The translations under genes and the position numbers were made by a program. From Nocardioides sp. S5 (GTDB taxonomy: Bacteria; Actinomycetota; Actinomycetes; Propionibacteriales; Nocardioidaceae): DNA of 64,000 bases. Where the stretch lies: assembly GCF_017310035.1 (NCBI RefSeq), contig NZ_CP022296.1:4216001-4280000 (forward strand). Direction: 5' to 3'. The notes under the pieces were generated by a model. The model was not told the origin of the DNA, did not search any database, and saw only the letters and a list, made by a program, of their open reading frames with translations. Shown piece by piece: positions 11,184 to 27,078 of the stretch (position 1 is the stretch's first letter; each line of letters opens with the position of its first letter).

Positions 11184-12411
11184 AGAGCATCCACTTCGCT
11201 GCGCCACCTGCGACCAAGCAGGCCGTCATCGTCCACGGCACCGCCACCGGGCCGCCCCCCTCCGCCAAGAGCACTGCCGATGCACCGATGAAGCCGGCAG
11301 CCATGCACGAGTTCACTGCGAGCAACGGGCGGTCGCGGCCGTAGGCATAGAGCCCGTAGTGCGGCACCAAGGACAGGGCTAGCGCCGACATCGCGAGCAG
11401 CGCCGGGAGCAGCACATCTGCGTGCTCGGCGTAGACTGCCTCGTCGAGCATCGTGAGAAGCGGATCCCGGAGCAGCATGGCCACACCGATGAACGGCACC
11501 GCGACGACAAGGATCGCGACGGACATGTGCTTCATGGCCCGACGAAGAGTTGCGAACTCACCCGCGCTGACCGCGCGGACCATCGCCGGGTAGTAGTACA
11601 CAACGACGCCTGATTCGATGAGCGCCAGCAGCGCGGCGGCGATGCCCATGAACAACACGTAGGCACCGACTACCTCGAGCCCGCCGAGCCCTTGAACCAC
11701 GAAGCGATCCAGGTTGAGCAGCGATCGAAGCGCCAAGGTCGCCAGCAGCAATGGCAGCGCGACTCGGGCGCCCCGGCGGACCCATGCCCAATCGACGGGA
11801 TCCCTCCACCCCGGAAGGGACTGCCCCGCAAGGAGCGCGCCGCCAACGCCGATGCCCAGCAGCAGCGAGCCGACCCACAGCGCGAGAACGACGTCGAGAT
11901 CACGCGCAGCCGGGATGAGCCACAGTGCCGGGATGGCCACCACACACCATCCTCCGACGCGGAAGAACATGATGAAGGTGGCCGCAATCTGCTTCTCCAT
12001 CGTCACGAACAGCCGGTTCATCTCCTGGGCCAGGTGCTCCAGCACAAGGATCACCCCGAACCACGCGACGAGCCCTGCGTCGGCAAACAGCATCGCCAGC
12101 AGAACGAAGGGGACGACCACGGCATACTGCACGAGCATCAGAGCGCCTTGCGAATGAATCATCTGAGCCCAGCGGGCTTGTGGCGCCCTCAGCATCTCCC
12201 GCGTGGTGTACGTGTAGAAGTCGAGACCCACGACCAAGAGCAGGTAGCCCGTGCCAGACGCAATCAGTCCATAGATGCCGACCTCTCTGGCGCTCAGGTA
12301 CTTCGCCATCAGGAGAACGACGAGGAACTTGCTCCCGAGGCTGAGCACGCGGAGGCCGAGACTGACGGCTTGCCGCAACACCCTGTTGCTGGCCGACGCG
12401 GTCGGACTCAC
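11131..12411 (-). CDS. Wzx-type polysaccharide flippase
   Basis: 426 residues with about 12 to 14 predicted membrane helices spread evenly through the chain (for example LLVVGLDFYTYTTREMLRAP near the third helix, a pattern typical of oligosaccharide flippases). It should move lipid-linked repeat units across the membrane. The start is GTG at 12411 and overlaps the DUF4422 gene stop as GTGA, so it is coupled to it. The C-terminus is Pro/Gly-rich and overlaps the convergent glycosyltransferase gene. Confidence 0.82.
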   Translation of the reverse strand: MSPTASASNRVLRQAVSLGLRVLSLGSKFLVVLLMAKYLSAREVGIYGLIASGTGYLLLVVGLDFYTYTTREMLRAPQARWAQMIHSQGALMLVQYAVVVPFVLLAMLFADAGLVAWFGVILVLEHLAQEMNRLFVTMEKQIAATFIMFFRVGGWCVVAIPALWLIPAARDLDVVLALWVGSLLLGIGVGGALLAGQSLPGWRDPVDWAWVRRGARVALPLLLATLALRSLLNLDRFVVQGLGGLEVVGAYVLFMGIAAALLALIESGVVVYYYPAMVRAVSAGEFATLRRAMKHMSVAILVVAVPFIGVAMLLRDPLLTMLDEAVYAEHADVLLPALLAMSALALSLVPHYGLYAYGRDRPLLAVNSCMAAGFIGASAVLLAEGGGPVAVPWTMTACLVAGGAAKWMLFSATSRKRASPGPVPPG

Positions 12412-13175
12412 TTGGCTCCGCGAAGTTTTCGCCGCAGCAGGTCGACACCCTTCTTGAGCACCGGCTCACCCTCCACCTGGACCACCTTGCGATACGTAAG
12501 ACCCAGGTCGTCCGCATGGTGCATCGCCCAGACGTTGAGCAGCCTCTCGCCCAAGAACCCGATCGCCCGCTTGTCCTGATCGCTGTAACCCGTCATGTCC
12601 AGCTCACCATGAACACGCTCCAAGATGCCGAACACCCACGGGCAGTACGCATGGAAGGCGTCTGAGCGCATGAGGAACATGTTGTAGAGCGACAGGGACC
12701 GGCTATCCATCAACCGATCAAAAGCCGGAACGTAGTCCGGCCATCCGTCTGCGATCACCTTGCGCGCAAGGTCGAGATCCTTCTCATGGTGCGCATGGGC
12801 GTAGTGACTACGCACAGTCTCAATCCCGTAGAGGCGGCGGCGGGCGAGGACGACGCTTGCCTCTCCCAATGCCTCGTTGACGTCCTCGTGTCCGAGAATG
12901 TTGGGGCCGGAGGGGTGCGGCGCTGTCCCCGAGAAGAAGCGTCGGTAGTGGGCTAGCCCGTAGATGTCTGCCTCTGGTCCGTTCTTCCAGAGCCAGTAGA
13001 GCCCCGTCAGCTCGCAGTACGTCGAGTTCAGATCCGAGATCTGGTCGCCGACATCGTCGCGGATCGCGTGCGGCACCGTGTCACGGCCAACGCTGCCGAC
13101 ATGTATGGGCGTGTAGATGGGGTCGCTCGGGAAGTCGTAGGGCTTGTGTGCCGCGATCAGGATGTGGGCCTTCAA
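12408..13175 (-). CDS. DUF4422 protein, probable glycosyltransferase
   Basis: 255 residues from a TTG at 13175. This start is chosen because GGAG lies 8 nt upstream and TTGA overlaps the stop of the polymerase gene by 4 nt. The longer in-frame version to 13400 would run deep into that gene. DUF4422 hallmarks are visible: ILIAAHKPY at the start, CELTGLYWLWKN and IYGLAHYRRFFS. Such proteins sit in capsule and O-antigen clusters and are treated as GT-A-like transferases, with no settled substrate. Second gene of a four-gene minus-strand run (legF, polymerase, this, flippase). Confidence 0.85.
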   Translation of the reverse strand: MKAHILIAAHKPYDFPSDPIYTPIHVGSVGRDTVPHAIRDDVGDQISDLNSTYCELTGLYWLWKNGPEADIYGLAHYRRFFSGTAPHPSGPNILGHEDVNEALGEASVVLARRRLYGIETVRSHYAHAHHEKDLDLARKVIADGWPDYVPAFDRLMDSRSLSLYNMFLMRSDAFHAYCPWVFGILERVHGELDMTGYSDQDKRAIGFLGERLLNVWAMHHADDLGLTYRKVVQVEGEPVLKKGVDLLRRKLRGAK

Positions 13176-14425
13176 GACGCGGACTCCACCCGTGAATTGC
13201 GTGCATCCTCGCGGGCTGCGCCCGAGCCCACTCGGCTCGCCTGCGTGCCGTGCCGTGCCGAGTACGAATGCCAGACCAGAAGGAGTAGACCGAACGACGC
13301 GTAACTGAGGTAGTTGTTCGCTGCATTCGCCACGACCACCATCACCACAACAGACAACCCCAGCCATCTCCGGGCGATGAGGCAGATCGCGAGTGCCCAT
13401 ATGACCACCACGACGATTAACGCCACGCCGATGAGTCCTCGGTCGAAGTAGATTTGCACGAACCCATTGTGAGAATGCACCGCATTGGATAGACCATCGA
13501 AGTTCGGCTCCACGCCAGCACCTTTTCCGAGCCAGACCGAGTCTCTCGCCTGCTCAAGCGTCGACTCCCACAGATCGACACGCCCCGTCAGGGTTGTGGA
13601 CCTTCCCAGAAGACCAAGGGCTCTGTCAGCAAGACCCTGGACACCAAATGACAGAATTCCCCCGACCAGACCAGCGACGGCCACGAAAAGCGCCGGTAGC
13701 GACGTCTTACGGTGCGCAGTGAGCAGAATTACGGTTAGCCCCGCAACGAGAACGAGAACGGCCGTGGCGGCATTCGAGATCCAGACCAACCCAGCATGGA
13801 ACGCCGCCAAGATGAAGAAGGCCCAACGCCGTTTCGGCCGTTTGCGGATGAACATCGAAAGAGCAATTACACACCCGAGAGCCGCAGAGAATCCCAGGTC
13901 GCTGTTCCAGATGAAAACTCCGATTGGCTGAACGATGGTTCCTTCGGTGGGGTGATCGACCGTCACGGTCCCAACCCCGGGAGCAAGGAAAATGACCAGA
14001 TACGATGCCACGCTCGTGCAAGTCAGAGCCCACAGCACGACGGCGTAGGAGTCGTACCGCAACTCCATGAGGGCCAGCACGACACCAAACAGCAAGACAC
14101 CCCCGAGCCCCGCCAGCGTAGTGAACGTTTCTGAATGCGAGCGAGTCCAGAGGATAGAAGCAAAACTCCAGGCCGCGAAGGCAAGCAGCGCGGGATTGCG
14201 CGCACCTAAGTCGAGCACCGCGCGGGGCCGAACGAGAGCAAGCACCAAGCCCACCACGCAGACGAGGGCTCGGAGGGGCTGATACCCGCCCAACCCTGCA
14301 TCAGCCAGCCAGCCTGCACCGGCGCCCGCAACCGCCACGATCGCTATACCCGCGAGCCAAGGCTGCCACTCACGGGAAACGCGCAGCGAACTCCAAATCC
14401 TGAACCTTCCGACTTTGCTTGTCAT
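13172..14425 (-). CDS. O-antigen ligase/polymerase-like membrane protein (Wzy/WaaL)
   Basis: 417 residues from the ATG at 14425, which directly precedes the hydrophobic part; an in-frame ATG at 14518 would add 31 basic residues and overlap legF, and cannot be excluded. About 10 to 12 membrane helices and a large outside loop carrying GKGAGVEPNFDGLSNAVHSH, the region conserved in Wzy_C proteins, support polymerisation or ligation of glycan units at the outer face. It is coupled to the DUF4422 gene by a TTGA overlap. GC dips here below the window average. Confidence 0.82.
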   Translation of the reverse strand: MTSKVGRFRIWSSLRVSREWQPWLAGIAIVAVAGAGAGWLADAGLGGYQPLRALVCVVGLVLALVRPRAVLDLGARNPALLAFAAWSFASILWTRSHSETFTTLAGLGGVLLFGVVLALMELRYDSYAVVLWALTCTSVASYLVIFLAPGVGTVTVDHPTEGTIVQPIGVFIWNSDLGFSAALGCVIALSMFIRKRPKRRWAFFILAAFHAGLVWISNAATAVLVLVAGLTVILLTAHRKTSLPALFVAVAGLVGGILSFGVQGLADRALGLLGRSTTLTGRVDLWESTLEQARDSVWLGKGAGVEPNFDGLSNAVHSHNGFVQIYFDRGLIGVALIVVVVIWALAICLIARRWLGLSVVVMVVVANAANNYLSYASFGLLLLVWHSYSARHGTQASRVGSGAAREDARNSRVESAS

Positions 14426-14501
14426 GGGGTTCTCTCTGTCCGACTTTTTGCGTAGCTCGTCGGGCCGAGCTGCAACGACTGTTCGACTCCTGTCCATTCC
14501 C

Positions 14502-15248
14502 TCACGCTTTGCCACCATCGTGCAGCCAAGGGAGGCTCAGCAACCCACCATCAACGAGACATTGGATCATGTCGAACTCAAGCTGGTCGTCGACCGAGAA
14601 GGCATGGAGCTCGCTGATCTCGACGCCAAGATGGCGCCCCGAGTCAAACCACGAGCCCTCCAACTTCCGGATGAACTCAGTCCTCCATACGTAGAAGCTT
14701 CCGTTGATGCGGAGAAACCGGCCCTCGCTGTCCTGACGTCGAGTAACGCCTCTGCCCGCCTCGTCGTACCGGACGAGCGCACCTTCGACCTCTCGCACGC
14801 CGACCCATGCAGGTTGAAACATCGGTTCCGACACCGCGATGGCACCCACGAACTCTGGGGCCGCCCACAGCAGCTCCACGGCGCGGTCGATCTCTTCCGG
14901 TTGGCGCCCAGGACTAGTTGGGTCGCAGAGCACCAACAGGTCGTATTCGCGCGCCTCCGCTCGTTCAACCTGATCGAGTGCGTGGCGAAGCACCGGGCCC
15001 ATCGGGGTGTCGTCCGCCGCGAGATCGGCTGGTCGCCTGAAAGGAACGTCGCCGCCCCACTGCTTCGCTACGGCCGCGATGTGGGGGTCATCGGTGCTCA
15101 CGACGACCCGATCAACGCGCGTCGCCATCTCAAGGGCACGGACGGCGTGAACCACCAGGGGCACTCCTGCCAGGGAGAGAGTGTTCTTGCCGGGTAAACC
15201 TTTGGACCCGCCTCGCGCGGGAACGACCCCAAGAGTGAGCGGCTTCAT
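14502..15248 (-). CDS. legF: CMP-nonulosonic acid cytidylyltransferase (legionaminate type)
   Basis: 248 residues. It should activate a nonulosonic acid with CTP. The N-terminal signature RGGSKGLPGKN and later CDPTSPGRQPEEID and NGSFYVWR are those of the NeuA/PtmB/LegF family. Divergent from the acetyltransferase gene with 135 nt between, and first of the minus-strand run that ends with the flippase. Sugar identity is inferred from the neighbouring PtmE-, LegB- and LegC-like genes; by itself this protein could equally act on sialic acid. Confidence 0.85.
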   Translation of the reverse strand: MKPLTLGVVPARGGSKGLPGKNTLSLAGVPLVVHAVRALEMATRVDRVVVSTDDPHIAAVAKQWGGDVPFRRPADLAADDTPMGPVLRHALDQVERAEAREYDLLVLCDPTSPGRQPEEIDRAVELLWAAPEFVGAIAVSEPMFQPAWVGVREVEGALVRYDEAGRGVTRRQDSEGRFLRINGSFYVWRTEFIRKLEGSWFDSGRHLGVEISELHAFSVDDQLEFDMIQCLVDGGLLSLPWLHDGGKA

Positions 15249-15383
15249 GGTTGCCCTTCGAGCAGCTTTGGTGACTCGATTGAGTCGGCGGATGCGACGC
15301 TCAGCCTAACTGCGAACGGGTACTCTCCCGCACGAGGCTCTCCCTAGAGCCTGACCCGACTTGACTGACATGGAGATCATTTG

Positions 15384-16013
15384 ATGGCGACGTCGACCGC
15401 CACCTCGGGCGGACGTTGGGTCGTCCTCGGGGCGGGCGGTCACGCATCGAGCATCTGCGACGTGCTCCGTTCCTCGGGGCACACGGTGATCGCCGTCTCC
15501 GGCGAAGCCACCTCACGATGGGACGTAGTGGTCTTGCCCTCTGACGAGACGGCTCTCGCCATGGCGGTCGAGCAGGACGCTTCTGTGGCCCTAGGTATCG
15601 GCGACAACGCCGTCCGACTTGCCCTCACACAGACGATTCCTCACCCGCTTCTCCGTCCCGCTGTGAGTGTGATGGCCACGTGCTCGGACCGTGCGGAGCT
15701 CGGTCTCGGTGTCTCCGTCCTCCATCACGCGCACGTGGGTCCAGGGGTCAAGCTCGGTGATGCCGTCATCGTCAACACCGCCGCCATCGTCGAGCACGAC
15801 AGCGTCGTTGGGGACGGCGCCCATGTCGCGCCGGGCGCCTGCCTGCTCGGAGGAGCCACCGTGGGACGGCGCACGCTGGTCGGCAGTGGGGCGCGAATTC
15901 TGCCTGGCGTGAGCGTGGGGGACAATGTGCTGGTGGGCGCTGGCGCGGTCGTCGTGGACGACGTGCCATCCGGGACGACAGTCGCAGGCGTGCCCGCACG
16001 TCCTGTTACGTGA
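15384..16013 (+). CDS. NeuD/PglD-type sugar O/N-acetyltransferase
   Basis: 209 residues from the ATG at 15384, with GGAG 8 nt upstream (a TTG directly before it is in frame). An N-terminal nucleotide-binding PglD_N domain (VVLGAGGHASSICDVL) is followed by left-handed beta-helix hexapeptide repeats from about residue 100 (GVSVLHHAHVGPGVKLGDAV, GDNVLVGAGAVVVDDVP). PglD relatives acetylate C4-amino groups of nucleotide-activated 4-amino-4,6-dideoxy sugars. That is the one step otherwise missing between LegC and LegG, so it likely fills the LegH role (inference). An O-acetylating NeuD role is the alternative. Confidence 0.8.
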   Translation: MATSTATSGGRWVVLGAGGHASSICDVLRSSGHTVIAVSGEATSRWDVVVLPSDETALAMAVEQDASVALGIGDNAVRLALTQTIPHPLLRPAVSVMATCSDRAELGLGVSVLHHAHVGPGVKLGDAVIVNTAAIVEHDSVVGDGAHVAPGACLLGGATVGRRTLVGSGARILPGVSVGDNVLVGAGAVVVDDVPSGTTVAGVPARPVT

Positions 16014-16037
16014 CCCAACGAGGGAGGCATCGACGGC

Positions 16038-17063
16038 GTGGCCCATCTTGACCTCGACCAAACCGACGACGTGCTCGTCATCGCCGAAGCAGGCGTCAAC
16101 CACAACGGCAGCGAGGACATCGCACACCAGCTCATCGACGTCGCTGTGGCATCGGGCGCTCAGGCGGTCAAGTTCCAGACCTTCGACCCGAGTGCCCTGA
16201 CGTCGGCCTCCGCTGAAGCCACGCCGTACCAGATGGAGCGATCAGGCGCCCGCGACCAGCAGAGCCTGCTGCAGGAGCTGACGCTGCCGGAGTCTGCTTG
16301 GCGTCGCCTCAAGGACCACTGCGACTCAGTGGGTATCCGCTTTCTCAGCACGCCGTTCGACATGGGCAGCGCACGTCTCCTCGTGGACCTGGGGGTTGAA
16401 GGCCTCAAGGTCTCGTCCGGCGAACTCACCAATCTTCCTATGCTCTCCGAGTTGTCGGCCCTCGGCCTCCCCCTTCTGGTCTCAACCGGCATGGGCGACG
16501 CCGACGAGGTGGCCGCGGCCGTTGCGGCGTGCGCCGCGGCTCCTCAACTTCTCATCTTCCACTGTGTCTCGGCCTATCCGGCACCGCTCGATCAGTGCAA
16601 CCTCACGGTCATCCCGGCCCTCATGCGGCAGCACGCCATCCCGGTCGGCTGGTCGGACCACACCCCCGGGCTGGCGTCGGCGGTCGCGGCGGTCACGCTA
16701 GGGGCGCGCGTGGTCGAGAAGCACTTCACCCTCGATCGTCAGATGGAAGGCCCCGACCACCTGGCCAGCCTCGAGCCCGAGGCGCTGACGGACTACGTCA
16801 CCACTCTGCGCGCCATTCCCGCGGCGCTCGGCAACGGCGTCAAGCGGCGTATGCCGGCGGAGGAGGAGAACGCTCCCCTGGTGCGGAGGTCGTGGCATGC
16901 CGCGCGAGACCTCGAGCCCGGCCACGTGTTGACGCCCGGCGACCTCGTCGCCCTGCGACCGGAAAGCGGCATCCGACCGGACAACGACATCGTCGGGCGC
17001 ACCATGGCTGCCACCGTTGCCGCCGGGCAGAGCGTGGCTTCAGAGGCGCTGGTGAACGGTTAG
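16038..17063 (+). CDS. legI: Legionaminic/N-acetylneuraminic acid synthase
   Basis: 341 residues from a GTG with GGGAGG upstream. It condenses a mannosamine-type sugar with phosphoenolpyruvate. NeuB barrel motifs are VIAEAGVNHNG (about 14-24), KFQTFDPSAL, STPFD and VVEKHFTLDR. A C-terminal SAF (antifreeze-like) domain includes the ARDLEPGHVLTPGDL stretch. Its stop overlaps the next GTG by one base (TAGTG). Confidence 0.92.
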   Translation: MAHLDLDQTDDVLVIAEAGVNHNGSEDIAHQLIDVAVASGAQAVKFQTFDPSALTSASAEATPYQMERSGARDQQSLLQELTLPESAWRRLKDHCDSVGIRFLSTPFDMGSARLLVDLGVEGLKVSSGELTNLPMLSELSALGLPLLVSTGMGDADEVAAAVAACAAAPQLLIFHCVSAYPAPLDQCNLTVIPALMRQHAIPVGWSDHTPGLASAVAAVTLGARVVEKHFTLDRQMEGPDHLASLEPEALTDYVTTLRAIPAALGNGVKRRMPAEEENAPLVRRSWHAARDLEPGHVLTPGDLVALRPESGIRPDNDIVGRTMAATVAAGQSVASEALVNG

Positions 17064-18220
17064 TGCGCCGCATCGCCCTCTTCGTCGGGACCCGGGCAGA
17101 CCTCGGGCCGCTCATGTCCGTGATCTCCGCGCTGGAGGATCATCCAGACGTCGAGCTCCACCTTCTGGTTGGCGTGGCGTTCGGCGCCGACGAGCTGCAC
17201 GCGCAGCTCCACCGCAGCCTCGCCGTTCCCCCCGACGTCAACCGCGTGCATGAGCTCACCCACCGCATGACAACGGTGGACGACGACAGCGTGCTGGCCC
17301 ACGGCCCAGTCCTCAGCGCAGCGATGCCGGCGGTCATCCACGACGTTGCTCCGGAAGCGTTGATCGTCCTCGGCGACCGGTGGGAGCTGCTCTACGTCGT
17401 CCCGCCCGCTTTCCTGGCCGGCGTCCGGATCATCCATCTGCACGGCGGCGAGGTCACCGAGGGGGCCCTTGACGAGCGTGTCCGGCATGCCGTGACCAAG
17501 CTCGCCGACCAGCACTGCGTAGCCTCGGAGGACTCCGCTCGCCGGCTCCGTCAGCTGGGCGAACCAGCCGAGCGCATCCACGTCACCGGCGCTCCCGGCC
17601 TCGATCTCTACAGCGGCGTCGCTGCGCTCACGGACGACGAGTTCGTGGAGCGGTTCGGACGCTCCCTTGCTCGTCCCTTGGCGCTCTTCACCTACCACCC
17701 GCCCACTGCCGAGAACGTCTCACAGGCAGGACCGTGGGCATATGGGGCACTGGTAGCAGCGCTCGAGCACTGCAAGACGGTCGTCGCCACCTATCCCGGC
17801 ATGGACGTCGGTCGCGAAGCGGTGCTGGAGGCGCTGACCCATCTGGCGTCCGACCACCGCGTCATCCTGGTCGAGGCCCTTGGGCCCGCCTACCCACGCA
17901 TGCTCGCCACGGCCGACGTGGTCGTGGGCAACTCGTCGTCGGGCGTCATCGAGGCCGCCAGCGTCGGGGTGCCCGCGGTGGACATCGGCGAACGTCAGCG
18001 TGGGCGGCTCAGGGGCCCCAACGTCCTCCACGCAGAGGAGGGGCGTGAGTCTGTCGGCGACGTGCTGGCTACTGCACTAACCGACAGCTTCCGCAAGACC
18101 GCACGGGCCACGTCGAACCCTTACGGCGACGGGCGGTCAGCTCTACGGATTGTCAATGTCGTTCTGGCGGCACGTGACGTGCCGCGCACCAAGGTCTTCC
18201 ACAATTGTGAGGTCCCATGA
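17063..18220 (+). CDS. legG: Hydrolysing UDP/GDP-sugar 2-epimerase (NeuC/LegG type)
   Basis: 385 residues from the GTG at 17063. The family epimerises C2 and hydrolyses the nucleotide to give the free mannosamine-type sugar used by NeuB/LegI. The beginning RRIALFVGTRADLGPLMSV, HLHGGEVTEGALDE, VTGAPGLD and the donor-site segment VVVGNSSSGVIEAASVGVPA are NeuC hallmarks. It ends in ATGA, overlapping the next gene. An open frame extends back into legI, but this is only the antisense-like coding bias of GC-rich DNA. Confidence 0.9.
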   Translation: MRRIALFVGTRADLGPLMSVISALEDHPDVELHLLVGVAFGADELHAQLHRSLAVPPDVNRVHELTHRMTTVDDDSVLAHGPVLSAAMPAVIHDVAPEALIVLGDRWELLYVVPPAFLAGVRIIHLHGGEVTEGALDERVRHAVTKLADQHCVASEDSARRLRQLGEPAERIHVTGAPGLDLYSGVAALTDDEFVERFGRSLARPLALFTYHPPTAENVSQAGPWAYGALVAALEHCKTVVATYPGMDVGREAVLEALTHLASDHRVILVEALGPAYPRMLATADVVVGNSSSGVIEAASVGVPAVDIGERQRGRLRGPNVLHAEEGRESVGDVLATALTDSFRKTARATSNPYGDGRSALRIVNVVLAARDVPRTKVFHNCEVP

Positions 18221-19275
18221 TCGACACGCACCTCGACCAGATCTGTGTGCCCCCCGACGCCACGCTCCTTCAGTCCATCGCTGCGATCGACCACGGAGCC
18301 AATGCTCTCTGCTGCGTGGTCGACGAGGAGAACCGTCTGCTTGCCGTGCTGACCGATGGAGACGTGCGGCGAGCACTTCTCGGCGGAGCGGCGCTCGACT
18401 CCCCGGCGCTGCCTCACGCCACCAGGGACCCGCGGACGGTCGAGTCGGGGACGCCGCGGGCACTGGTGATCGACGTGATGAGGTCGGTGCGGATCTCGGC
18501 AGTTCCGGAGGTCGACGACCAGCGCCGCCTGGTGGGTCTGCACACCCTGTCCGACGTGCTCGGCGCGCCGCAGTTGCCCAACGTCGCCGTCATCATGGCC
18601 GGCGGTCGGGGATCACGACTGGGCGACCTCACCGCCTCGACCCCGAAGCCCCTCATGACCGTTGCCGGGCGCAGCATCATCGAGTGGTCGGTGCTCGGCC
18701 TCGTCGGCGGAGGAGTGCGACACATCTTCGTCAGCGTCAACCACTTGGCAGAGCAGATCATCGACCACCTCGGAGACGGCTCGCGTCTCGGTTGTCGCAT
18801 CGACTACCTCCACGAGCAGGTGGACAAGCCGCTGGGCACCGCGGGCTCCTTGACGCTGCTGCCCGACGCGGTGCGGCATGCACCCCATCCACTCATCGTC
18901 ATGAACGGCGACTTGATGGTCGAGTTCGAAGCGGAGCGCCTCGTCGAGCACCACCGCCGAAGCGGAGCCGAGCTGACGATGGGGGTGCGTGCCTACACGC
19001 ACACGGTGCCGTTCGGGGTCGTGCAGACCGACACCGCCCACCGGGTCACCAGCATCGCCGAGAAGCCGGAGATGCGCGTCGAGATCAACACCGCCGTCTA
19101 CTGCCTCGACCCGCAGCTGATCCAGCTTCTGCCGACCGGCGAGCACAGCACCATGCCCGAGCTCGCCCAAACCTGCTTGGACGATGACCGGTCGGTCGCT
19201 GCATGGACCATGAACGCCGACTGGATCGATGTCGGAACACCCGCTGACCTCGCCCGCGCGAAAGGACAAGCATGA
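18217..19275 (+). CDS. ptmE: CBS-domain nucleotidyltransferase, PtmE-like
   Basis: 352 residues. Two N-terminal CBS motifs (about 1-118, with VVDEENRLLAVLTDGDVRRA) precede an NTP-transferase domain starting AVIMAGGRGSRLG, with TPKPLM and a C-terminal NTAVY...DIGTP-like end (DWIDVGTPADLARA). This two-part layout is that of Campylobacter PtmE, the GlcN-1-phosphate guanylyltransferase that opens the GDP-linked legionaminate route. Its presence is the main reason to prefer legionaminate to sialic acid here. Overlaps both neighbours by ATGA. Confidence 0.85.
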   Translation: MIDTHLDQICVPPDATLLQSIAAIDHGANALCCVVDEENRLLAVLTDGDVRRALLGGAALDSPALPHATRDPRTVESGTPRALVIDVMRSVRISAVPEVDDQRRLVGLHTLSDVLGAPQLPNVAVIMAGGRGSRLGDLTASTPKPLMTVAGRSIIEWSVLGLVGGGVRHIFVSVNHLAEQIIDHLGDGSRLGCRIDYLHEQVDKPLGTAGSLTLLPDAVRHAPHPLIVMNGDLMVEFEAERLVEHHRRSGAELTMGVRAYTHTVPFGVVQTDTAHRVTSIAEKPEMRVEINTAVYCLDPQLIQLLPTGEHSTMPELAQTCLDDDRSVAAWTMNADWIDVGTPADLARAKGQA

Positions 19276-20312
19276 GCGCAAGACCCCTGACCGAGAGCGA
19301 CCCACAAGAGACCGTGGCGGGCAAGAAGGTGCTGGTCACCGGATCAGACGGCTTCATCGGGTCCCACGTGGTCGAGCGCTTGCTGGCCCACGGCGCGCAC
19401 GTGCGGGCATTCTGCCTCTACAACTCGTTCAGCTCCACCGGCTGGCTCGAGGAGTCCGAGGCGTTCCAGCAGGCACTACGCGACGGCCAGGCAGAGATCG
19501 TGCTCGGCGACGTCCGCGACGCTGAACACGTTATGAGCGCTGCTACCGATGTCGACGTCGTGCTCCACCTGGCTGCCCTCATCGCCATCCCTTACTCCTA
19601 CGTCGCTCCTCGCTCCTACGTCGACACCAACATCACGGGAACGCTCAACGTGCTCGAGGCCGTACGCCGACACGGAACACCGCGCCTGGTGAACACCTCG
19701 ACCTCGGAGGTCTACGGCACCCCGGACTCGGTGCCGATCACCGAGGCTCACGCCCTCCGCGGCCAGTCTCCGTACTCCGCCACCAAGATCGGCGCCGACA
19801 AGCTCTGCGAGTCCTACGCCCTCTCTTTCGACCTCCCCGTCACGATCCTGCGTCCCTTCAACACGTTCGGGCCCCGCCAGTCGGCTCGCGCCGTCATCCC
19901 GACGGTGCTGTCGCAGCTGCTGGCAGGTGCTGAGTCGCTGCGTCTCGGCGCGGTGTCCCCCAAGCGCGACTTCACCTTCGCCACCGATACCGCCGAGGGA
20001 TTCGTGCGGGCAGCCACGGCGCCGCTCGCACCGGGCGAGACAGTCCAGCTCGGCACCGGCCGGACGGTGTCCGTCGGCGAGGTCGTCGAGATGTGCAAGA
20101 CGATCACGGGAAACGACGCGGAGGTCCTCACCGATGAGGCTCGACTGCGTCCCGACGGCTCGGAGGTCGAGATCTTGCTCTCGGACCCCAGCCGCGCCAA
20201 GGAGCTGCTCGACTGGACGCCCGAAGTGTCACTCGAGGACGGCCTGCGCCTGACTGCCGAATGGCTCGAGGGACGCACGGACGTCGACACGGCGGGCCGG
20301 TACCACCGATGA
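19272..20312 (+). CDS. legB: NDP-N-acetylglucosamine 4,6-dehydratase (LegB-like)
   Basis: 346 residues, extended SDR fold. The NAD-binding motif GSDGFIGSHVVERL is near residue 24; catalytic STSEVYG and YSATK (the YxxxK) follow. The FCLYNSFSSTGWLEE stretch resembles the LegB/PglF-like subgroup that acts on GlcNAc-type nucleotides. It should make the 4-keto-6-deoxy intermediate. Starts by ATGA overlap with ptmE and ends by ATGA overlap with the aminotransferase. Confidence 0.87.
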   Translation: MSARPLTESDPQETVAGKKVLVTGSDGFIGSHVVERLLAHGAHVRAFCLYNSFSSTGWLEESEAFQQALRDGQAEIVLGDVRDAEHVMSAATDVDVVLHLAALIAIPYSYVAPRSYVDTNITGTLNVLEAVRRHGTPRLVNTSTSEVYGTPDSVPITEAHALRGQSPYSATKIGADKLCESYALSFDLPVTILRPFNTFGPRQSARAVIPTVLSQLLAGAESLRLGAVSPKRDFTFATDTAEGFVRAATAPLAPGETVQLGTGRTVSVGEVVEMCKTITGNDAEVLTDEARLRPDGSEVEILLSDPSRAKELLDWTPEVSLEDGLRLTAEWLEGRTDVDTAGRYHR

Positions 20313-21508
20313 CGAGCGCCAACGACCCCACGATCGTCTTGGCCGGGGAGACACACGCCCCGGGCGCGCCTGCGCCTGCCGGCGGAATCCCACTTGCCAC
20401 TCCGGACATCGGGCCTCTCGAGAGGGCTGCGGTAGTAGACGCCCTCGACTCGGGCTTCGTGTCCTCGGTGGGCCCGGCCGTGGGTGACTTCGAGCGAGAG
20501 TTCGCCGAGGTGGTCGGTTCCCGCTTTGCCGTGGCCTGCTCGAGCGGCACGGCAGCACTGCATGTCGCTCTTCGGGTCCTCGATGTCGGCCCTGGCGACG
20601 AAGTGGCGTGCTCCGACTTCACGTTCGTCGGTTCGAGCAACCCGATCGCCTATCAGGGGGCACGGACACTGCTGATCGATTCGGAGGCAGACACCTGGAA
20701 CATGAGTCCCGAGCTGCTGCACGCGGAGCTCTCCCGACGGGCGGCAGCTGAAGAGCCCCAACCCAAGTGCGTGGAGCTCGTGCACGTGCTGGGACAGCCG
20801 GCGAAGGCCGACGAGATCCTCGACGTGTGCAGGCAGTTCTCCATTCCCGTGATCGAGGACGCTGCTGAGAGCCTCGGTGCGGGATGGTCCACTGGGCTGC
20901 TTGCGGGGCGCCAGACAGGCTCCGTCGGGCTCTTGGGGTGCTTCTCGTTCAACGGCAACAAGATTGCCACTGCTGGGGGCGGCGGGATGGTCGTCACCGA
21001 CGATCCGTTGCTCGCGCAAAGGGTGCGACACCTCACGACGCAGGCGAAGGTTCCAGACGTCGGGTACTTGCACGACGAGGTGGGGTACAACTACCGGTTG
21101 ACCAACCTCGCGGCCGCACTCGGGCGGGCCCAGCTGAGTCGACTGACAGACTTCGTGGAGGCGAAGCGCGCCATCGCAGGCCGGTACGACGATGCGTTTG
21201 CAGACCTGCCACTCGTGCTGCCCCCGCGGCTCCCCGGTCACGACGCGACGTACTGGCTCTACTCAGTGCTCCTGCGCGACGCCGCCGAGCGGGGTCCTTT
21301 CCTTGACCACCTCGGCGCGCACGGGGTGGGCGCACGTGCCTTGTGGAGACCGCTACATCGCCAACCTCCGTTCGCGAGTTCAGCGCTCGTCGGCGGGGCT
21401 GTTGCTGATGATCTGTTCGACCGAGGTGTGTCGCTGCCTTGCTCGACCCACCTGACCGGTGTCGACCAAGCGCGAGTTATCGACGCAGTTCGCTCGTACT
21501 TCGGCTGA
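20309..21508 (+). CDS. legC: DegT/DnrJ/EryC1-family sugar aminotransferase (LegC-like)
   Basis: 399 residues from the ATG at 20309 (ATGA overlap), a PLP enzyme that aminates C4 of the 4-keto sugar. The Schiff-base lysine lies in FSFNGNKIATAGGGGM; CSSGTAALHVAL and IEDAAESLGAGW are cofactor-site signatures, and NYRLTNLAAALG is the usual C-terminal-half motif. Last gene of the leg operon, with a 62-nt convergent gap to the phosphotransferase gene. Confidence 0.9.
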   Translation: MTSANDPTIVLAGETHAPGAPAPAGGIPLATPDIGPLERAAVVDALDSGFVSSVGPAVGDFEREFAEVVGSRFAVACSSGTAALHVALRVLDVGPGDEVACSDFTFVGSSNPIAYQGARTLLIDSEADTWNMSPELLHAELSRRAAAEEPQPKCVELVHVLGQPAKADEILDVCRQFSIPVIEDAAESLGAGWSTGLLAGRQTGSVGLLGCFSFNGNKIATAGGGGMVVTDDPLLAQRVRHLTTQAKVPDVGYLHDEVGYNYRLTNLAAALGRAQLSRLTDFVEAKRAIAGRYDDAFADLPLVLPPRLPGHDATYWLYSVLLRDAAERGPFLDHLGAHGVGARALWRPLHRQPPFASSALVGGAVADDLFDRGVSLPCSTHLTGVDQARVIDAVRSYFG

Positions 21509-21570
21509 CGTTCCCTTGCGGGGCTGACTGGTGCGACCGCACGCTGCGCGCTGACCGCTTGGTGGCGCCG

Positions 21571-23100
21571 TCAGTAGGCACCATCGGAGGCCACGACAGC
21601 CTTGGCGGTGCGCCACAGGATCATCAGGTCCGCCGTCATGGACCAGTTCTCCACGTAGTGCACGTCCAGTCGAATCGCCTCGTCGTACGACAGGTCGGAG
21701 CGACCGGAGACCTGCCACAGACCGGTCATCCCGGGGAGCACGCTCAACCGACGGGTGGCGACGTGGTCGTAGCCGTCGACCTCGAAGTCGCGCTGCGGTC
21801 GCGGGCCTACCAGGCTCATGTCGCCCCGGAGGACGTTGATGAGCTGGGGAAGTTCGTCGATCGAGAAGCGGCGGATGAACACCCCCACCCGGGTCACGCG
21901 CGGGTCACGCGTCAGCTTGGGCAGCTCAGCGAGCGTCCTGCCCTCGGCAGCAAGCAGCGCCTGAAGCTCGGCGTCCGCTCCGACCTTCATCGAGCGGAAC
22001 TTGATCATGCCGAAGGCTGCCCCATCACGACCCACGCGCTCTTGCCGGTAGAACACCGGGCCCGCGCTGGTGAGCTTGACCGCGAGTGCCGTGGCGATGA
22101 AGAGCGGTGAGACGAGGAGCAGGATGACGCAGGCTCCAACGCGATCGAAGAGCGTCTTGGCGAGACGGCTCGCGCCGGCGTACTGCGGCTCGCTCAGGTG
22201 CAGCAGCGGCATGCCCGACACGTCGTGCAGGCTCATCCGCGTCGACGACACGTCGAGCACGTTGGGTGACAGCAGCAGATCGATGCCGGTGCCCTCGAGC
22301 TGCCAGGTGAGGTCGCGCAGCGACTCGTGGCCCAGGTGCTCGGTGTCGGTCACCACCACGGCTTCGGCCCCCGACGCGGACAGCGCCTCGTCGAAGTCGA
22401 CGTCTGCCGACATCATCGGCACCCGCCGCAGCGCCGGGCTGAACGGCGTGGACAGGTGGGAGGTGCTGTCCGGGACCCAGACACCGCTGACGACATATCC
22501 GCTGGCAGGGTGGCGGGAGAACCATCGGGCAAGATCGTTGGCAGACCTCTCGCCACCGACGACCAGGACACGTTCGAGCGACCGGCCCTTCGCGCGCGCC
22601 TTCTGCAAGCCCACGCGTGCGACCTTGCGAGCAACCAGCAGGCCCACCAGTCCCAGGGGAAGCGCGATGGCGATGTAGAGGCGGGAGGCGTCGATCTTGA
22701 ACGCGACCGACACGAAGGCAAGCACGGCGAACGCACGGAACGTCGCGACCAGCACGCGGCGGTATTCCTCGGAACCGTTGCCGATGATGCGGGAGCTCCG
22801 CACCCTGTGGACCTGCAGTGACGTCCACCAAGCGGCCGCGAGCGCGACGCCCAGGACCGGGTAGGGCACGTAGAGCCCGTCGACAGGGGGGCCGGAGGTC
22901 GCCCCGAAGCGGACGAGCTGGGCCGCCATGAGCGCAACGAGCAGCACGACGAAGTCGGCGACGAGGAGGCGACGCTTGTAGGCGCTGCGCCAGTCGGAGC
23001 CCTGCCCATCACCGGGGACAGGATGCGCGGGAGCGGCGCTGTTGCCGTGCGCGAGGTCGACACCATCATGGTGAACACGGAAAAGGTCGACCTGCGTCAT
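21571..23100 (-). CDS. Polyprenyl-phosphate sugar phosphotransferase (initiating enzyme)
   Basis: 509 residues. Four or five N-terminal membrane helices (about 45-150) and a central Rossmann-like CoA-binding domain ([17 protein letters not shown]) precede the bacterial sugar transferase domain with its membrane entry ([18 protein letters not shown]), [18 protein letters not shown] and [19 protein letters not shown]. It should put the first sugar-1-phosphate on the lipid carrier. GGGGGA lies 5 nt before the ATG. Donor sugar unknown. Confidence 0.93.
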
Positions 23101-23307: not shown

Positions 23308-23378
23308 GTCAAGACAATTTTGACGGTCTCTTGACCTAATTCGACACCCGGCCGGTAAACGTGCCGCACAATGTGCGG
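23308..23378 (+). promoter_or_regulatory. Promoter/operator region of the XRE-TPR regulator
   Basis: Arms GTCAAGA (23308-23314) and TCTTGAC (23329-23335) form an inverted repeat that overlaps a possible -35 TTGACC (23331-23336). A weak -10 TAAACG (23356-23361) follows after 19 nt. Directly before the ATG lies the palindrome CCGCACA-A-TGTGCGG (23364-23378), well placed for autoregulation at the transcription start. Promoter assignment is inference; both palindromes are exact. Confidence 0.45.
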
Positions 23379-24737
23379 ATGGACGCGCGTCATGCCGAGC
23401 TGCTGGGCCGCACCGACCGTGAGGCGCTGGGTCGCCGACTCCGGTCCGCACGCCAGGCACGGGGGCTCACCCAAGGTCAGGTTGCGGACGAGCTGATGTC
23501 GGTCGCCTACCTCTCCCGCATCGAGAGCGGCCACCGCCGCCCCACCGCACCTGCGCTCGAGACCCTCGCCGAGCGCCTCGGCGTCACCGTCGACTCGCTG
23601 CTCGGCGAGCCCGAGCGCCACGTGGTCGACGAGATCCGCCTCGCCCTCGACTACGCCGAGCTCTCCCTGGAGTCCGGGCAGCCCGAGGACGCCGAGCGCC
23701 ACCTGCACAAGGCCCTCGACACCATGGCGGCCTCCCGCATGGCCGGCCTCCGCGAGCGCGCCCGCCTGCTCCACGCCCGCGCCCTCGAGGCCACCAACCG
23801 CGAGGACGACGCCGTCATCGAGCTCGAAGCGATCATCGACGACCGGTCCGCCGACGGGCTGACCCGGATCAGGGCCGGCATCGCCCTGAGCCGCATCTAT
23901 CGCGAGACCGGCGACCTGGGCCGCGCCATCGAGTGCGGCGAGCGGGTGATGGCCGACATGGAGGAGTCCGGGCTCGAGTCCTGCGACGAGGCGGTCCAGC
24001 TCGCGGTCACCGTTGCCGCCGCACACTTCGAGCGCGGCGACACCGCCCACGCCGTACGCCTGTGCCGCAAGGCGATCACCCGGGCCGAGTCGCTCGGGTC
24101 GCCCCGAGCGCGCGCGTCCGCCTACTGGAACGCCAGCGTCATGCAAGCGAACCGAGGGGACGTGGCTGCGGCCGTGCCGCTCGCGGAGCGCGCCCTGGCG
24201 CTGCTCGGCGAGGGTCAGGACGCCCGCAACCTCGCCCGCCTGCGCACCGAGGTCGGACGCCTCCAGCTCGAGCTGGACCCGCCCGCCATCGACGAGGCGC
24301 GCCACAACCTCGAGCAGGCGGCCGCGGAGATGGAGTGGAGCAGCGCCTCCCCCGTCGACCGCGCGTGGACGCTGCTGGGACTGGCTCGCGTGGGCTTCCT
24401 CGCCGGTGACCTCACCGGCAGCCGCGCCCTTGTGGCGCAGGTGCACACCACCGCCGACGGGCACGCCCCGCTGGCCGAGGCCGAGGCGCTGACCCTCGAG
24501 GGCAGGACGTACGCCGCCGAGGGCGCGACCGAGCTCGCCGCACGGTCCTACCAGGCCGCCGTCCTCCGGCTCTCCGCCATCGGTGCCGACCAGAGCGCGG
24601 CCCAGCTGTGGTTCGACCTCGCCGACCTGCTGGAGGGCGTCGGACTGGCGGAGGAGGCGCTGGACGCCTACCGCCGTGCTGCGGCGTCGACCGGGCTGCG
24701 GGCTCGGGTCACCTCGACCACCCTCGCCCGCAGCTGA
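23379..24737 (+). CDS. XRE-family HTH regulator with TPR domain (RRNPP-like architecture)
   Basis: 452 residues from the ATG at 23379; GTG codons at 23361 and 23373 are in frame but lie within a palindrome. The XRE helix-turn-helix is at about 17-70 (LRSARQARGLTQGQVADELM, YLSRIESGHRRP). The remaining 380 residues are alpha-helical TPR-like repeats (LALDYAELSLESGQPEDAER, ALSRIYRETGDLGRAIECGE). HTH plus TPR is the layout of peptide-sensing regulators such as PlcR, Rgg and NprR. A secreted-peptide gene ends 18 nt from its stop, converging on it. No ligand or target is known; other HTH-TPR proteins have no peptide partner. Confidence 0.85.
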   Translation: MDARHAELLGRTDREALGRRLRSARQARGLTQGQVADELMSVAYLSRIESGHRRPTAPALETLAERLGVTVDSLLGEPERHVVDEIRLALDYAELSLESGQPEDAERHLHKALDTMAASRMAGLRERARLLHARALEATNREDDAVIELEAIIDDRSADGLTRIRAGIALSRIYRETGDLGRAIECGERVMADMEESGLESCDEAVQLAVTVAAAHFERGDTAHAVRLCRKAITRAESLGSPRARASAYWNASVMQANRGDVAAAVPLAERALALLGEGQDARNLARLRTEVGRLQLELDPPAIDEARHNLEQAAAEMEWSSASPVDRAWTLLGLARVGFLAGDLTGSRALVAQVHTTADGHAPLAEAEALTLEGRTYAAEGATELAARSYQAAVLRLSAIGADQSAAQLWFDLADLLEGVGLAEEALDAYRRAAASTGLRARVTSTTLARS

Positions 24738-24755
24738 CCCTGAGGTCGCTCGGGA

Positions 24756-24878
24756 TCAGCAGCACCACACGTTGCGCATCTGCTGCTGGGCAGGCGCGGC
24801 CTCGGCCGGCGAGGAGAGACCGATCATGCCGATCAGGGCGATCGAGGCGACGAGGATGCGGGGGGCCTTGCGGTTCAT
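24756..24878 (-). CDS. 40-residue secreted peptide precursor, candidate pheromone
   Basis: The ATG at 24878 has GGAG 5 nt upstream, a strong ribosome site. A complete signal peptide is present: basic MNRKAPR, hydrophobic ILVASIALIGMIGL, then SSPAEA. Cleavage after AEA would release APAQQQMRNVWCC, a 13-residue peptide with an aromatic residue and two terminal cysteines. Codon usage is native (C/G-ending). An in-frame ATG at 24956 would bury the signal peptide and is rejected. Convergent to the XRE-TPR gene, and preceded by three small palindromes. Likely a signalling peptide (inference); a tiny secreted structural peptide is the alternative. Confidence 0.72.
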   Translation of the reverse strand: MNRKAPRILVASIALIGMIGLSSPAEAAPAQQQMRNVWCC

Positions 24879-24948
24879 GGTGACTCCAGGGGCTAGGTGT
24901 GCTGTGTGGGGTTGGTTGGCAGGCGTCCCGAGCCCCTGCCTGAGAAAC

Positions 24949-25015
24949 TTTGTCAAAACTAGTGCTGAGTGTCGTCCGCTTTGACAAACTTGGGCAAGTG
25001 CGATGACAAATCATC
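24949..25015 (-). promoter_or_regulatory. Three palindromes upstream of the peptide gene
   Basis: TTTGTCAAA (24949-24957), TTTGACAAA (24980-24988) and GATGA-CAAA-TCATC (25002-25015). The first two are the same palindrome with the central base changed, 31 bp (about three helical turns) apart. Read on the minus strand, the first contains an exact -35 TTGACA. AT-rich sites in otherwise GC-rich DNA make binding-site or promoter function likely. Confidence 0.5.
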
Positions 25016-25142: not shown

Positions 25143-26621
25143 TCAGAGCGGCAGCGCCACCCGCACGGTGGTGCCGGCGCCGGGGGCGCTGTCGAGCGAC
25201 ACCTGGCCGGCGTGGGCCTCGACGATGGTGCGGACGATGTCCAGGCCGAGGCCGGCGCCGGGCACCTGGAGACGGCGCGCGTTGGCGCCGCGGAAGAAGC
25301 GGGTGAAGACGTCGGCGACGTCGAGGCGGTCGATGCCGACCCCTTCGTCGGCCACGGTGAGCACGACATGGTCACGGTCCTCCGACAGGGTGACGCGGAC
25401 CAGGTCACCGGCCCGGCTGTAGGCGATGGCGTTGGCGAGCAGGTTGTCGAGCACCTGCCGCAGGCGCATGCCGTCGGCGACAGCCACCAGCGAGGAGGGC
25501 CCGTGCCACTCCACGCGTACGCCGGATCCCGACGCGTCGAGCCCGGCGGCCTCGACGGCCTCGGTGAGCACCGCTGCGACGTCGAGACGGTAGCGGTCGA
25601 CGACCGACGACCCGGCTGACACGCGGGCGGCGAGGAGCAGGTCGGCGACGAGGTGGGACAGCCTCAGCATGTTGCGCCGGGCGGCGCCGACCTGCTGGCG
25701 CCCCTCGGCGCTGACGTCGCCGGAGTCGTCGAGCAGCTCGAGGTAGGCGAGCGCGGAGGTCAGCGGCGTACGCAGCTCGTGGGACACGATCGCGACGAAG
25801 TCGTCCTTGGCCCCCACCGCCCGCAGCAGGTCGGTGACGTCCTGGAGAGCGACCACGGCGCCGGTGAGGCGTCCGATCCGGTCACGGACCGGACGCGCGG
25901 AGACCGACAGCGCGCGCCGGGAGTCCGGGTCCTCCCCGACCCACAGCATCACGCCGTCGAACTGCTCACCTCGTGCGGCTCGCACCGACGGCAGCTCGTC
26001 GACGGGCAGCCGGCGCAGGTCGAGGTCGTAGACGAAGGCGTCCGGGCCCGCGTGGCCGTCGTGCCCGCGCGGGTAGGCCAGGTCGAGGATGTCGGAGAGG
26101 CGGTTGTTGAAGGCGAGGTAGGCACCGTCGGCGTCGACCTGAAGCAGCCCGACGGCCACCGACTCGAAGAGGGCCTCGGTGCGTTGCTGCTCCGCCTCCA
26201 CCGCGGCCTCGGCCGCGTCGAGCCGCTCGACGAACGCGTGCCGCTCGGTGATGTCGGCGACCTGGGAGATGAAGTGGACCGGCGATCCGTCCGGCGCCCG
26301 CAGCAGCGCGACCGACAGGTCGCCGATCGCCACGGTGCCGTCGGCGCAGATGTAGCGCTTGGTGATCCGGTAGGAGCTGATGTCGCCCGCGATGGTCTGG
26401 TCGAGCAACCGCAGGTCGCTCGCGAGGTCGTCGGGATGGGTGATCGACCGGACGTCGAGGGTGGCGAGCACGTCGGGCTCGTAGCCGAGCATGTCGCACA
26501 GCGCTGCGTTGACGGTGAGGAACGCTCCCGCGGGAGAGACGATCGCCATGCCGACGGGCGAGTGCTCCATGGTCAGCCGCCACAGGTCGTCCGTCTCGGC
26601 CACATGGGTCTGTGCCGTCAC
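25143..26621 (-). CDS. Soluble PAS-PAS sensor histidine kinase
   Basis: 492 residues from the GTG at 26621, which follows AAGGAGGG by 4 nt; the in-frame extension to 26873 looks non-coding. PAS domain 1 is at about 15-130 (VNAALCDMLGYEPDVLATLD), PAS 2 at about 148-265, then HisKA with SHELRTPLT and phospho-acceptor His281, and HATPase with NLLANAI, DEGVGI and GAGLGLDIV. No membrane helix, so it senses a cytoplasmic or diffusible cue. No response regulator is adjacent. It shares a neighbourhood, but not an operon, with the XRE/peptide pair. Confidence 0.9.
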   Translation of the reverse strand: MTAQTHVAETDDLWRLTMEHSPVGMAIVSPAGAFLTVNAALCDMLGYEPDVLATLDVRSITHPDDLASDLRLLDQTIAGDISSYRITKRYICADGTVAIGDLSVALLRAPDGSPVHFISQVADITERHAFVERLDAAEAAVEAEQQRTEALFESVAVGLLQVDADGAYLAFNNRLSDILDLAYPRGHDGHAGPDAFVYDLDLRRLPVDELPSVRAARGEQFDGVMLWVGEDPDSRRALSVSARPVRDRIGRLTGAVVALQDVTDLLRAVGAKDDFVAIVSHELRTPLTSALAYLELLDDSGDVSAEGRQQVGAARRNMLRLSHLVADLLLAARVSAGSSVVDRYRLDVAAVLTEAVEAAGLDASGSGVRVEWHGPSSLVAVADGMRLRQVLDNLLANAIAYSRAGDLVRVTLSEDRDHVVLTVADEGVGIDRLDVADVFTRFFRGANARRLQVPGAGLGLDIVRTIVEAHAGQVSLDSAPGAGTTVRVALPL

Positions 26622-26713
26622 GCAACCCTCCTTCACACGCACCGCCGGATCGTCACCGTACGAGGCCGGAGGGAGGTGGCGCAGGCACTGTGGGAGAACC
26701 GTGTGAAAAATGA

Positions 26714-26747
26714 GAGGAACGCCCCGCGCTCGCAGCGCAGGGCGTCC
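26714..26747 (-). terminator. Intrinsic terminator of the sulfur operon
   Basis: Stem ACGCCC-C-GCGCT / AGCGC-A-GGGCGT (26718-26744), extended by AGG/CCT, with a CGC loop. On the minus strand it is followed closely by TTTTT (complement of 26706-26710). Ends transcription after the DUF1416 gene. Confidence 0.75.
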
Positions 26748-26760
26748 TCCTTGACGAACG

Positions 26761-27078
26761 TCAGGCGCTGACGAGCACCTGGACCTCGGCCACGGACCCG
26801 GTCGCCGCGACGACGCGGGTGTCCACCGGCTGCGCCTTCGGAGCGAGGGTGCGCAGCGTCCACTCACCGTCACCGGCGAAGAAGCGGAAGTGCCCGGTGG
26901 CCGACGTCGGCACCTCGGCGGTGAACTCGCCGGAGCGGTCGAGCAGCCTCACGTAGGCGTTGGGCACCGGCTCGCTCTCCTCACCGGCACCGCCCCTCAG
27001 GACCTGGCCCTGGATCACGGCCTCCTTGGCCACGTTGACGCCGTCGAGCGACAGCCCGCCCTCGGTTGCTCCGCACAT
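26761..27078 (-). CDS. DUF1416 protein
   Basis: 105 residues, the standard family length. Starts MCGATEGGLSLDGVN and has a beta-sandwich-like body (GQVLRGG, VRLLDRSGEFTAEVPTSATG). In actinobacteria it regularly follows the rhodanese gene, as here with one base between stop and start, so a function in sulfur transfer is inferred. The CxGA start could carry a functional Cys2. Last gene of the operon. Confidence 0.9.
   Translation of the reverse strand: MCGATEGGLSLDGVNVAKEAVIQGQVLRGGAGEESEPVPNAYVRLLDRSGEFTAEVPTSATGHFRFFAGDGEWTLRTLAPKAQPVDTRVVAATGSVAEVQVLVSA

Follow-up and report, generated by a model that had tools for sequence, protein, structure and literature searches.

The locus described here lies in a 64,000-nucleotide stretch of the genome of the soil bacterium Nocardioides sp. 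S5 (contig NZ_CP022296.1, positions 4,216,001 to 4,280,000; hereafter the window) and consists of two convergent genes whose stop codons are separated by 18 nt. The first, at 23379..24737 on the plus strand, encodes a 452-residue XRE-type regulator in which an N-terminal helix-turn-helix (HTH) DNA-binding domain is followed by tetratricopeptide repeats (TPR). The second, at 24756..24878 on the minus strand (ATG at 24876-24878, stop at 24756-24758), encodes a 40-residue propeptide, MNRKAPRILVASIALIGMIGLSSPAEAAPAQQQMRNVWCC, and is preceded by a GGAG ribosome-binding site read from the sequence (24884..24887, minus strand). Residues 1-27 of the propeptide (24798..24878, minus strand) form a predicted Sec signal peptide with n, h and c regions and an A-E-A end; signal peptides were judged by a hydropathy heuristic made for this analysis and, for this propeptide, by a reading of the three regions. 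The mature product predicted to remain after A-E-A is APAQQQMRNVWCC. An earlier annotation of the window, here called the original prediction, had described just this arrangement, a HTH-TPR regulator converging at 18 nt with a 40-codon gene in which a ribosome site, a signal peptide and this same mature product were seen, and the description was confirmed. The propeptide is the sole signal-peptide-like open reading frame (ORF) of 28-80 aa ending in Cys-Cys in the 64-kb window, and the same scan of the reversed window found none.

Domain searches with the open frame that runs from GTG 23361 to the stop at 24737 recovered HTH_31 (4.9e-14) and TPR_12 (1.4e-11). The HTH domain, also matched by HTH_3 and HTH_19, occupies residues 22-80 of the 458-residue frame (23424..23600, plus strand), and the TPR superhelix, the putative peptide-binding domain, extends over 23628..24698 on the same strand; the AlphaFold2 model has a mean pLDDT of 90.9. 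Both domains and fold give the protein the architecture of a cytoplasmic RRNPP-type receptor, namely a TPR domain with an N-terminal XRE HTH. The original prediction had placed the start at the GTG, 18 nt upstream of ATG 23379, which would give 458 aa. The ATG is the more likely start, since a CACAAT hexamer, a putative -10 box, stands 6 nt before it (23367..23372, plus strand), with the spacing that separates a -10 box from a leaderless start. Among 120 regulators tested, 61 have [GC]ACAAT 4-8 nt ahead of an ATG or GTG, and in 53 of those it is CACAAT 5-7 nt ahead of an ATG, against a chance expectation of about 0.008 CACAAT per 110 nt. This layout disfavours the GTG, and the regulator mRNA would accordingly fit a leaderless transcript. 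Regulators 95% identical to that of the window are found in the nearest genus genome (G007) and in Nocardioides furvisabuli (L287), a named record with the same propeptide (MIRKAPRILVASIALIGMIGLSAPAEAAPAKQQMRNVWCC).

Within the clade of the window (30 loci, 39 propeptides) the W-C-C end is present in 39/39 propeptides, and the last six residues read [RK][NTSH][VGI]WCC, with R or K at position -6 in all 39, T, N, S or H at -5 and V, G or I at -4. Further upstream, position -8 is mostly T or Q, and positions -7 and -9 to -12 are more variable. Conservation thus peaks in the C-terminal hexapeptide, which is the predicted active unit, with RNVWCC as the putative pheromone core in the window (24759..24776, minus strand). 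The ratio of nonsynonymous to synonymous substitution rates (dN/dS) of the propeptide is 0.36 over 25 gap-free pairs in which each sequence was used once, nine of the pairs being tandem copies inside one locus; it is 0.26 for codons 1-27 and 0.48 for the remainder. These values indicate that the ORF is under purifying selection, and the small ORF, whose reality the original prediction had tied to conservation, is indeed kept in relatives with a protein-like substitution pattern. The tails, read by eye, also track the regulator tree, with groups such as RxVWCC, ADRPSGCC and RWCC.

Relatives of the regulator (E up to 1e-15) were found in 100 of the 215 genomes of the genus. The genus analysis comprised 121 loci with 134 regulator frames; the fragment G034:C35 stands outside it, and L012 was omitted as L142 covers the same locus. 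Regulators of at least 380 aa and away from contig ends were taken as assessable, which excluded eight shorter frames and two at contig ends and left 124, with the frameshifted L099 counted among them as one without a propeptide. An adjacent small secreted ORF ending in Cys-Cys accompanies 101 of the 124 regulators, so that the linkage presumed in the original prediction is upheld, including on the divergent side: of 116 propeptides assigned, 108 are convergent and eight divergent with respect to the regulator. Gene order switched twice on the regulator tree, and the pairing was kept despite the change. The remaining 23 assessable regulators lack one within reach; several belong to tandem regulator arrays or group together on the tree, and the propeptide-less state requires 13 changes there, whereas 200 shuffles averaged 21.5 and never fell below 17. 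Over 621,210 nt of loci, 111 signal-peptide-like ORFs ending in Cys-Cys lie at most 700 nt from a regulator and one lies elsewhere, the latter being an additional copy of a tandem propeptide. The pairing of regulator and propeptide is real, and far beyond chance.

The Cys-Cys end served as a selection criterion for the 116 propeptides, of which 112 end exactly in CC and 77 in WCC; two or three copies stand in tandem at 10 regulators. When a propeptide profile was run over the 215 genomes and its listed matches (down to E 2.8e-4) were compared by eye with the regulator matches, the listed ones that reach the last model position all fell in regulator-holding genomes, and those listed for regulator-less genomes were partial and signal-peptide-like. 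As side observations, tandem arrays of two to four regulators, some of the copies shortened, with one propeptide found at one end, occur at L135, L137, L082, L109 and L113, and the propeptide of L134 (1864 onward) carries an SLLGPHL unit twice ahead of its CC end.

The promoter of the propeptide gene holds two palindromes, TTTGTCAAA (24949..24957) and TTTGACAAA (24980..24988), which are putative regulator sites. The original prediction had pointed to this pair, and the two are the sole TTTGNCAAA sites of the whole 4.75-Mb genome (G000), in which a control pattern had none. An imperfect palindrome, CTTGGGCAAG (24989..24998), adjoins TTTGACAAA; many clade relatives have CTTGCCCAAGTTTGCCAAA, as judged by eye. 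TTTGNCAAA, a motif derived from the window itself, was also counted across the loci, which are mutually related: the 18,560 nt ahead of propeptides contain 27 copies (24/102 loci), the 23,834 nt ahead of regulators two, and 485,865 nt of other locus sequence none. The looser TTGNCAA is about a hundredfold denser upstream of propeptides than elsewhere (61/102 loci).

On the regulator side, the previously noticed TTTTGAC is present at 23318..23324 (plus strand) as a half-site-like element, weak for the window itself. Several clade regulator promoters carry TTTGCC...GGCAAA half-sites at the matching place, less clear in the window, and these half-sites suggest that the regulator controls its own promoter. 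The sequence CCGCACA-A-TGTGCGG at the regulator start, which had also been proposed as a regulatory palindrome, does exist; in that role it was rejected and is treated as a chance occurrence, since it shares bases with the putative -10 box and has been lost in L002 (GCGCACAATGACCCC), a relative with 95% identity. No promoter came out of a scan for the sigma-70 consensus, and the single terminator-like site found is about what shuffled sequence gives. The motif search for a regulon indicated no target outside the locus and none can be named, TTTGNCAAA having no other site in the genome.

The pairing extends to Jiangellaceae and further families of the class. Receptor matches were found in 85 of 391 genomes at the order level and in 101 of 394 at the class level, the latter spread over 37 of 137 genera. 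Other genera of the family, in the grouping of the tool, contributed nine loci, two of which bear the name Nocardioides in public records; a Cys-Cys propeptide lies nearby in five of the nine and 1.6 kb away in a sixth (L176). Forty-one class loci, a subset of the places listed, were examined, 21 from a search and 20 picked for spread. Cys-Cys stands at or near the tail in 15/21 and 7/20 respectively, another four of the 20 have Trp-Pro tails, and no recognisable propeptide was found in 6/21 and 9/20. A scan of named genomes, a set skewed to close relatives by the query shape, gave 69 loci, many of them in genomes already covered, with a credible Cys-Cys propeptide in 60, including one 2.2 kb from its regulator (L278); the candidate flagged by script at L312 was not credible and was left out of this count. 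Such loci belong to Nocardioides, Jiangella, Phytoactinopolyspora, Haloactinopolyspora and one Streptomyces, S. fuscichromogenes (where the ORF is on the same strand), as well as to metagenome bins that carry the labels Streptosporangiaceae, Streptomycetales, Frankiales and Frankiaceae. Of 7994 candidates scored in a database of 5.8 billion proteins, 1159 matched the receptor profile at E up to 1e-40. One single-pattern scan of viral contigs found no phage-borne relatives, which is weak evidence of absence. In two Jiangella loci (L273, L274) the receptor is flanked by two Cys-Cys propeptides, a divergent one and in addition a convergent one (GSDYCC/GSDFCC), and at L226, L230 and other places of family f20 many regulator matches were reported with one in-frame stop.

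A second tail type accompanies related receptors. Of the 20 loci of family f2, 17 have a divergent signal-peptide ORF that carries Gly-x-Trp close to its end (Gly-x-Trp-Pro in 12 of the 17), and relaxing the thresholds for ribosome site and hydropathy adds L192 and L196. Because this set lacks cysteines, the Cys-Cys end is not required by the receptor family as a whole. Several propeptides are repetitive, with five GGGIWPK units in L182, three GEGIWY units in L186 and, among the class loci with Trp-Pro tails, three GNWPDPM units in L248, two in L249 and a duplicated GWP unit in L258. These repeats resemble the layout of a multi-copy pheromone precursor, and short repeated units beside related receptors are as expected for a precursor that is cut into short signals.

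The pair probably constitutes a self-contained peptide-pheromone circuit, made of a cytoplasmic receptor and its propeptide and working like PlcR-PapR or Rgg-SHP. The 40-aa propeptide would be exported by Sec and cut by signal peptidase, and its product trimmed to a short pheromone, some six residues from the C-terminus (probably RNVWCC in the window). An oligopeptide permease would then re-import this peptide, which would bind in the groove of the TPR superhelix of the adjacent regulator, and the peptide-loaded regulator would act at the TTTGNCAAA palindromes of the propeptide promoter, most simply as an activator with positive feedback. General export and import machinery exists, since the genome holds three SBP_bac_5 oligopeptide-binding proteins and one signal peptidase I. 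The claim of the original prediction that the pair is equivalent to an RRNPP system is supported by conservation, linkage, layout and the match to PlcR, from which we infer peptide sensing. Among solved structures, the natural protein that matches best by sequence profile is PlcR, in an alignment (E 1.1e-14, profile positions 14-234 of 453) that takes in the HTH plus the first half of the TPR region, and the PlcR-PapR7-DNA complex ranks third in Foldseek (E 1.9e-7). Two results of these comparisons make homology to RRNPP receptors, beyond generic TPR likeness, less certain: engineered TPR proteins outscore PlcR in the profile search, and the fold comparison, with the generic TPR protein LGN on top, fails to single out RRNPP receptors.

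The same features allow other explanations. The small ORF could encode a secreted effector, an antimicrobial or vicinal-disulfide peptide, whose expression the regulator controls without sensing it. A small, secreted-type product with a Cys-Cys tail, the faster change of its mature part (the 0.48 given above) and putative regulator sites in its promoter all agree with this; however, no modification enzyme or dedicated exporter was found among 13 scanned neighbours (part of the window), what is conserved is the six-residue end, the regulator has a TPR domain, and related receptors adjoin cysteine-free propeptides with repeated short units, so that we consider an effector unlikely. Alternatively, the Cys-Cys end may act as a thiol, metal or redox sensor through which the regulator reads envelope oxidation or metals rather than cell density. 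Nothing is more constant among the 116 genus propeptides than the cysteine pair, although they were selected for it, and a KatG-like gene adjoins three loci (L081, L093, L114; by eye). Nevertheless, neighbours vary between clades, and family f2, L248, L249 and L258 keep the gene pair without a Cys-Cys tail, which makes such a sensor quite improbable. Cysteine-codon attenuators occur in actinobacteria, and a short ORF that closes with tandem Cys codons recalls the leader peptides of mycobacterial polycysteine short ORFs, yet such an ORF lies upstream of the operon it regulates and on the same transcript, whereas here it converges on the regulator, the next called gene on its strand starting at 23100, 1.65 kb further on. 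Given also the ribosome site, the conservation of the signal peptide and of the W and R/K residues, and the constant place beside one receptor family, an attenuator is hardly credible.

As for the output of the proposed pheromone circuit, the surrounding genes offer candidates. A polysaccharide locus (12408-23100) with NeuB, nucleotidyltransferases, an epimerase, a DegT aminotransferase, Wzy_C, DUF4422 and a polyprenyl sugar transferase lies on one side; the polyprenyl sugar transferase gene is divergent from the regulator, and the locus is a candidate target, the adjoining exopolysaccharide genes being a guess as circuit output. Upstream of the propeptide gene, domain search recognised a PAS histidine kinase (25143-26873). 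In a comparison by eye of 24 loci, such a kinase stands beside the unit, on its downstream side, in seven (L033, L034, L036, L040, L041, L044, L049), neighbours differ from clade to clade, exopolysaccharide-type or CysN-like genes lie upstream in some, and no firm output was indicated.

It may be speculated, as a rather doubtful extension of the circuit, that Actinomycetes (Nocardioidaceae, Jiangellaceae and other families) share a class-wide linear-peptide language which one XRE-TPR receptor superfamily reads in two dialects, Cys-Cys and Gly-x-Trp, with the Cys-Cys form recognised in one redox state only, either free dithiol or vicinal disulfide, and thereby reporting density and redox together. 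If the circuit itself holds true, RRNPP-like peptide signalling, so far known from another phylum, would also be present in actinobacteria, and the conserved pair would provide a signal that is genetically encoded and species-tunable, in Nocardioides as in other families of the class. Its ligand is predictable from the sequence, hence directly testable with synthetic hexapeptides, and could supply simple inducers for actinomycete regulators and gene clusters.

According to PMC10075063, Actinomycetota typically signal by enzyme-made small molecules, and RRNPP receptor-propeptide pairs come from Bacillota. In the open-access literature no such system was found reported in Actinomycetota; preprints fell outside this scope, as did most subscription papers. 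Two families of actinobacterial TPR proteins match the regulator weakly, the TPR protein of the FxSxx-COOH system (NF040586; E 1.2e-5, 24 bits against a curated cut-off of 300) and the NsdA family (NF053720; E 1.4e-4, 21.5 against 75 bits). The parallel drawn in the original prediction was to Rgg, PlcR and NprR, whose layout the pair does share. With NprR-NprX and Rap-Phr the differences prevail, Rap having no DNA-binding HTH, identity being low (14-15%) and LGN scoring higher. The streptococcal Rgg-SHP and ComR-ComS systems also place a small peptide gene next to that of a cytoplasmic XRE-TPR regulator; ComR was found in the profile search via its HTH (E 2e-8), and the conserved Trp recalls the WW motif carried by ComS. 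SHP and ComS are not known to have a classical Sec signal peptide, whereas the propeptides described here have a predicted one, and end in Cys-Cys or Gly-x-Trp tails. The best natural relative by sequence among solved structures, PlcR, belongs with PapR to the Bacillus cereus group, and the PlcR-PapR system differs in phylum, in receptor length (293 aa in PlcR, 452 here) and in the features peculiar to the present pair, namely the [RK]xxWCC tail, the convergent or divergent gene order and the probably leaderless receptor mRNA; both systems nevertheless couple an XRE HTH and TPR receptor to an adjacent short exported propeptide, with the signal, here predicted, in its C-terminal residues and a palindromic site in its promoter.
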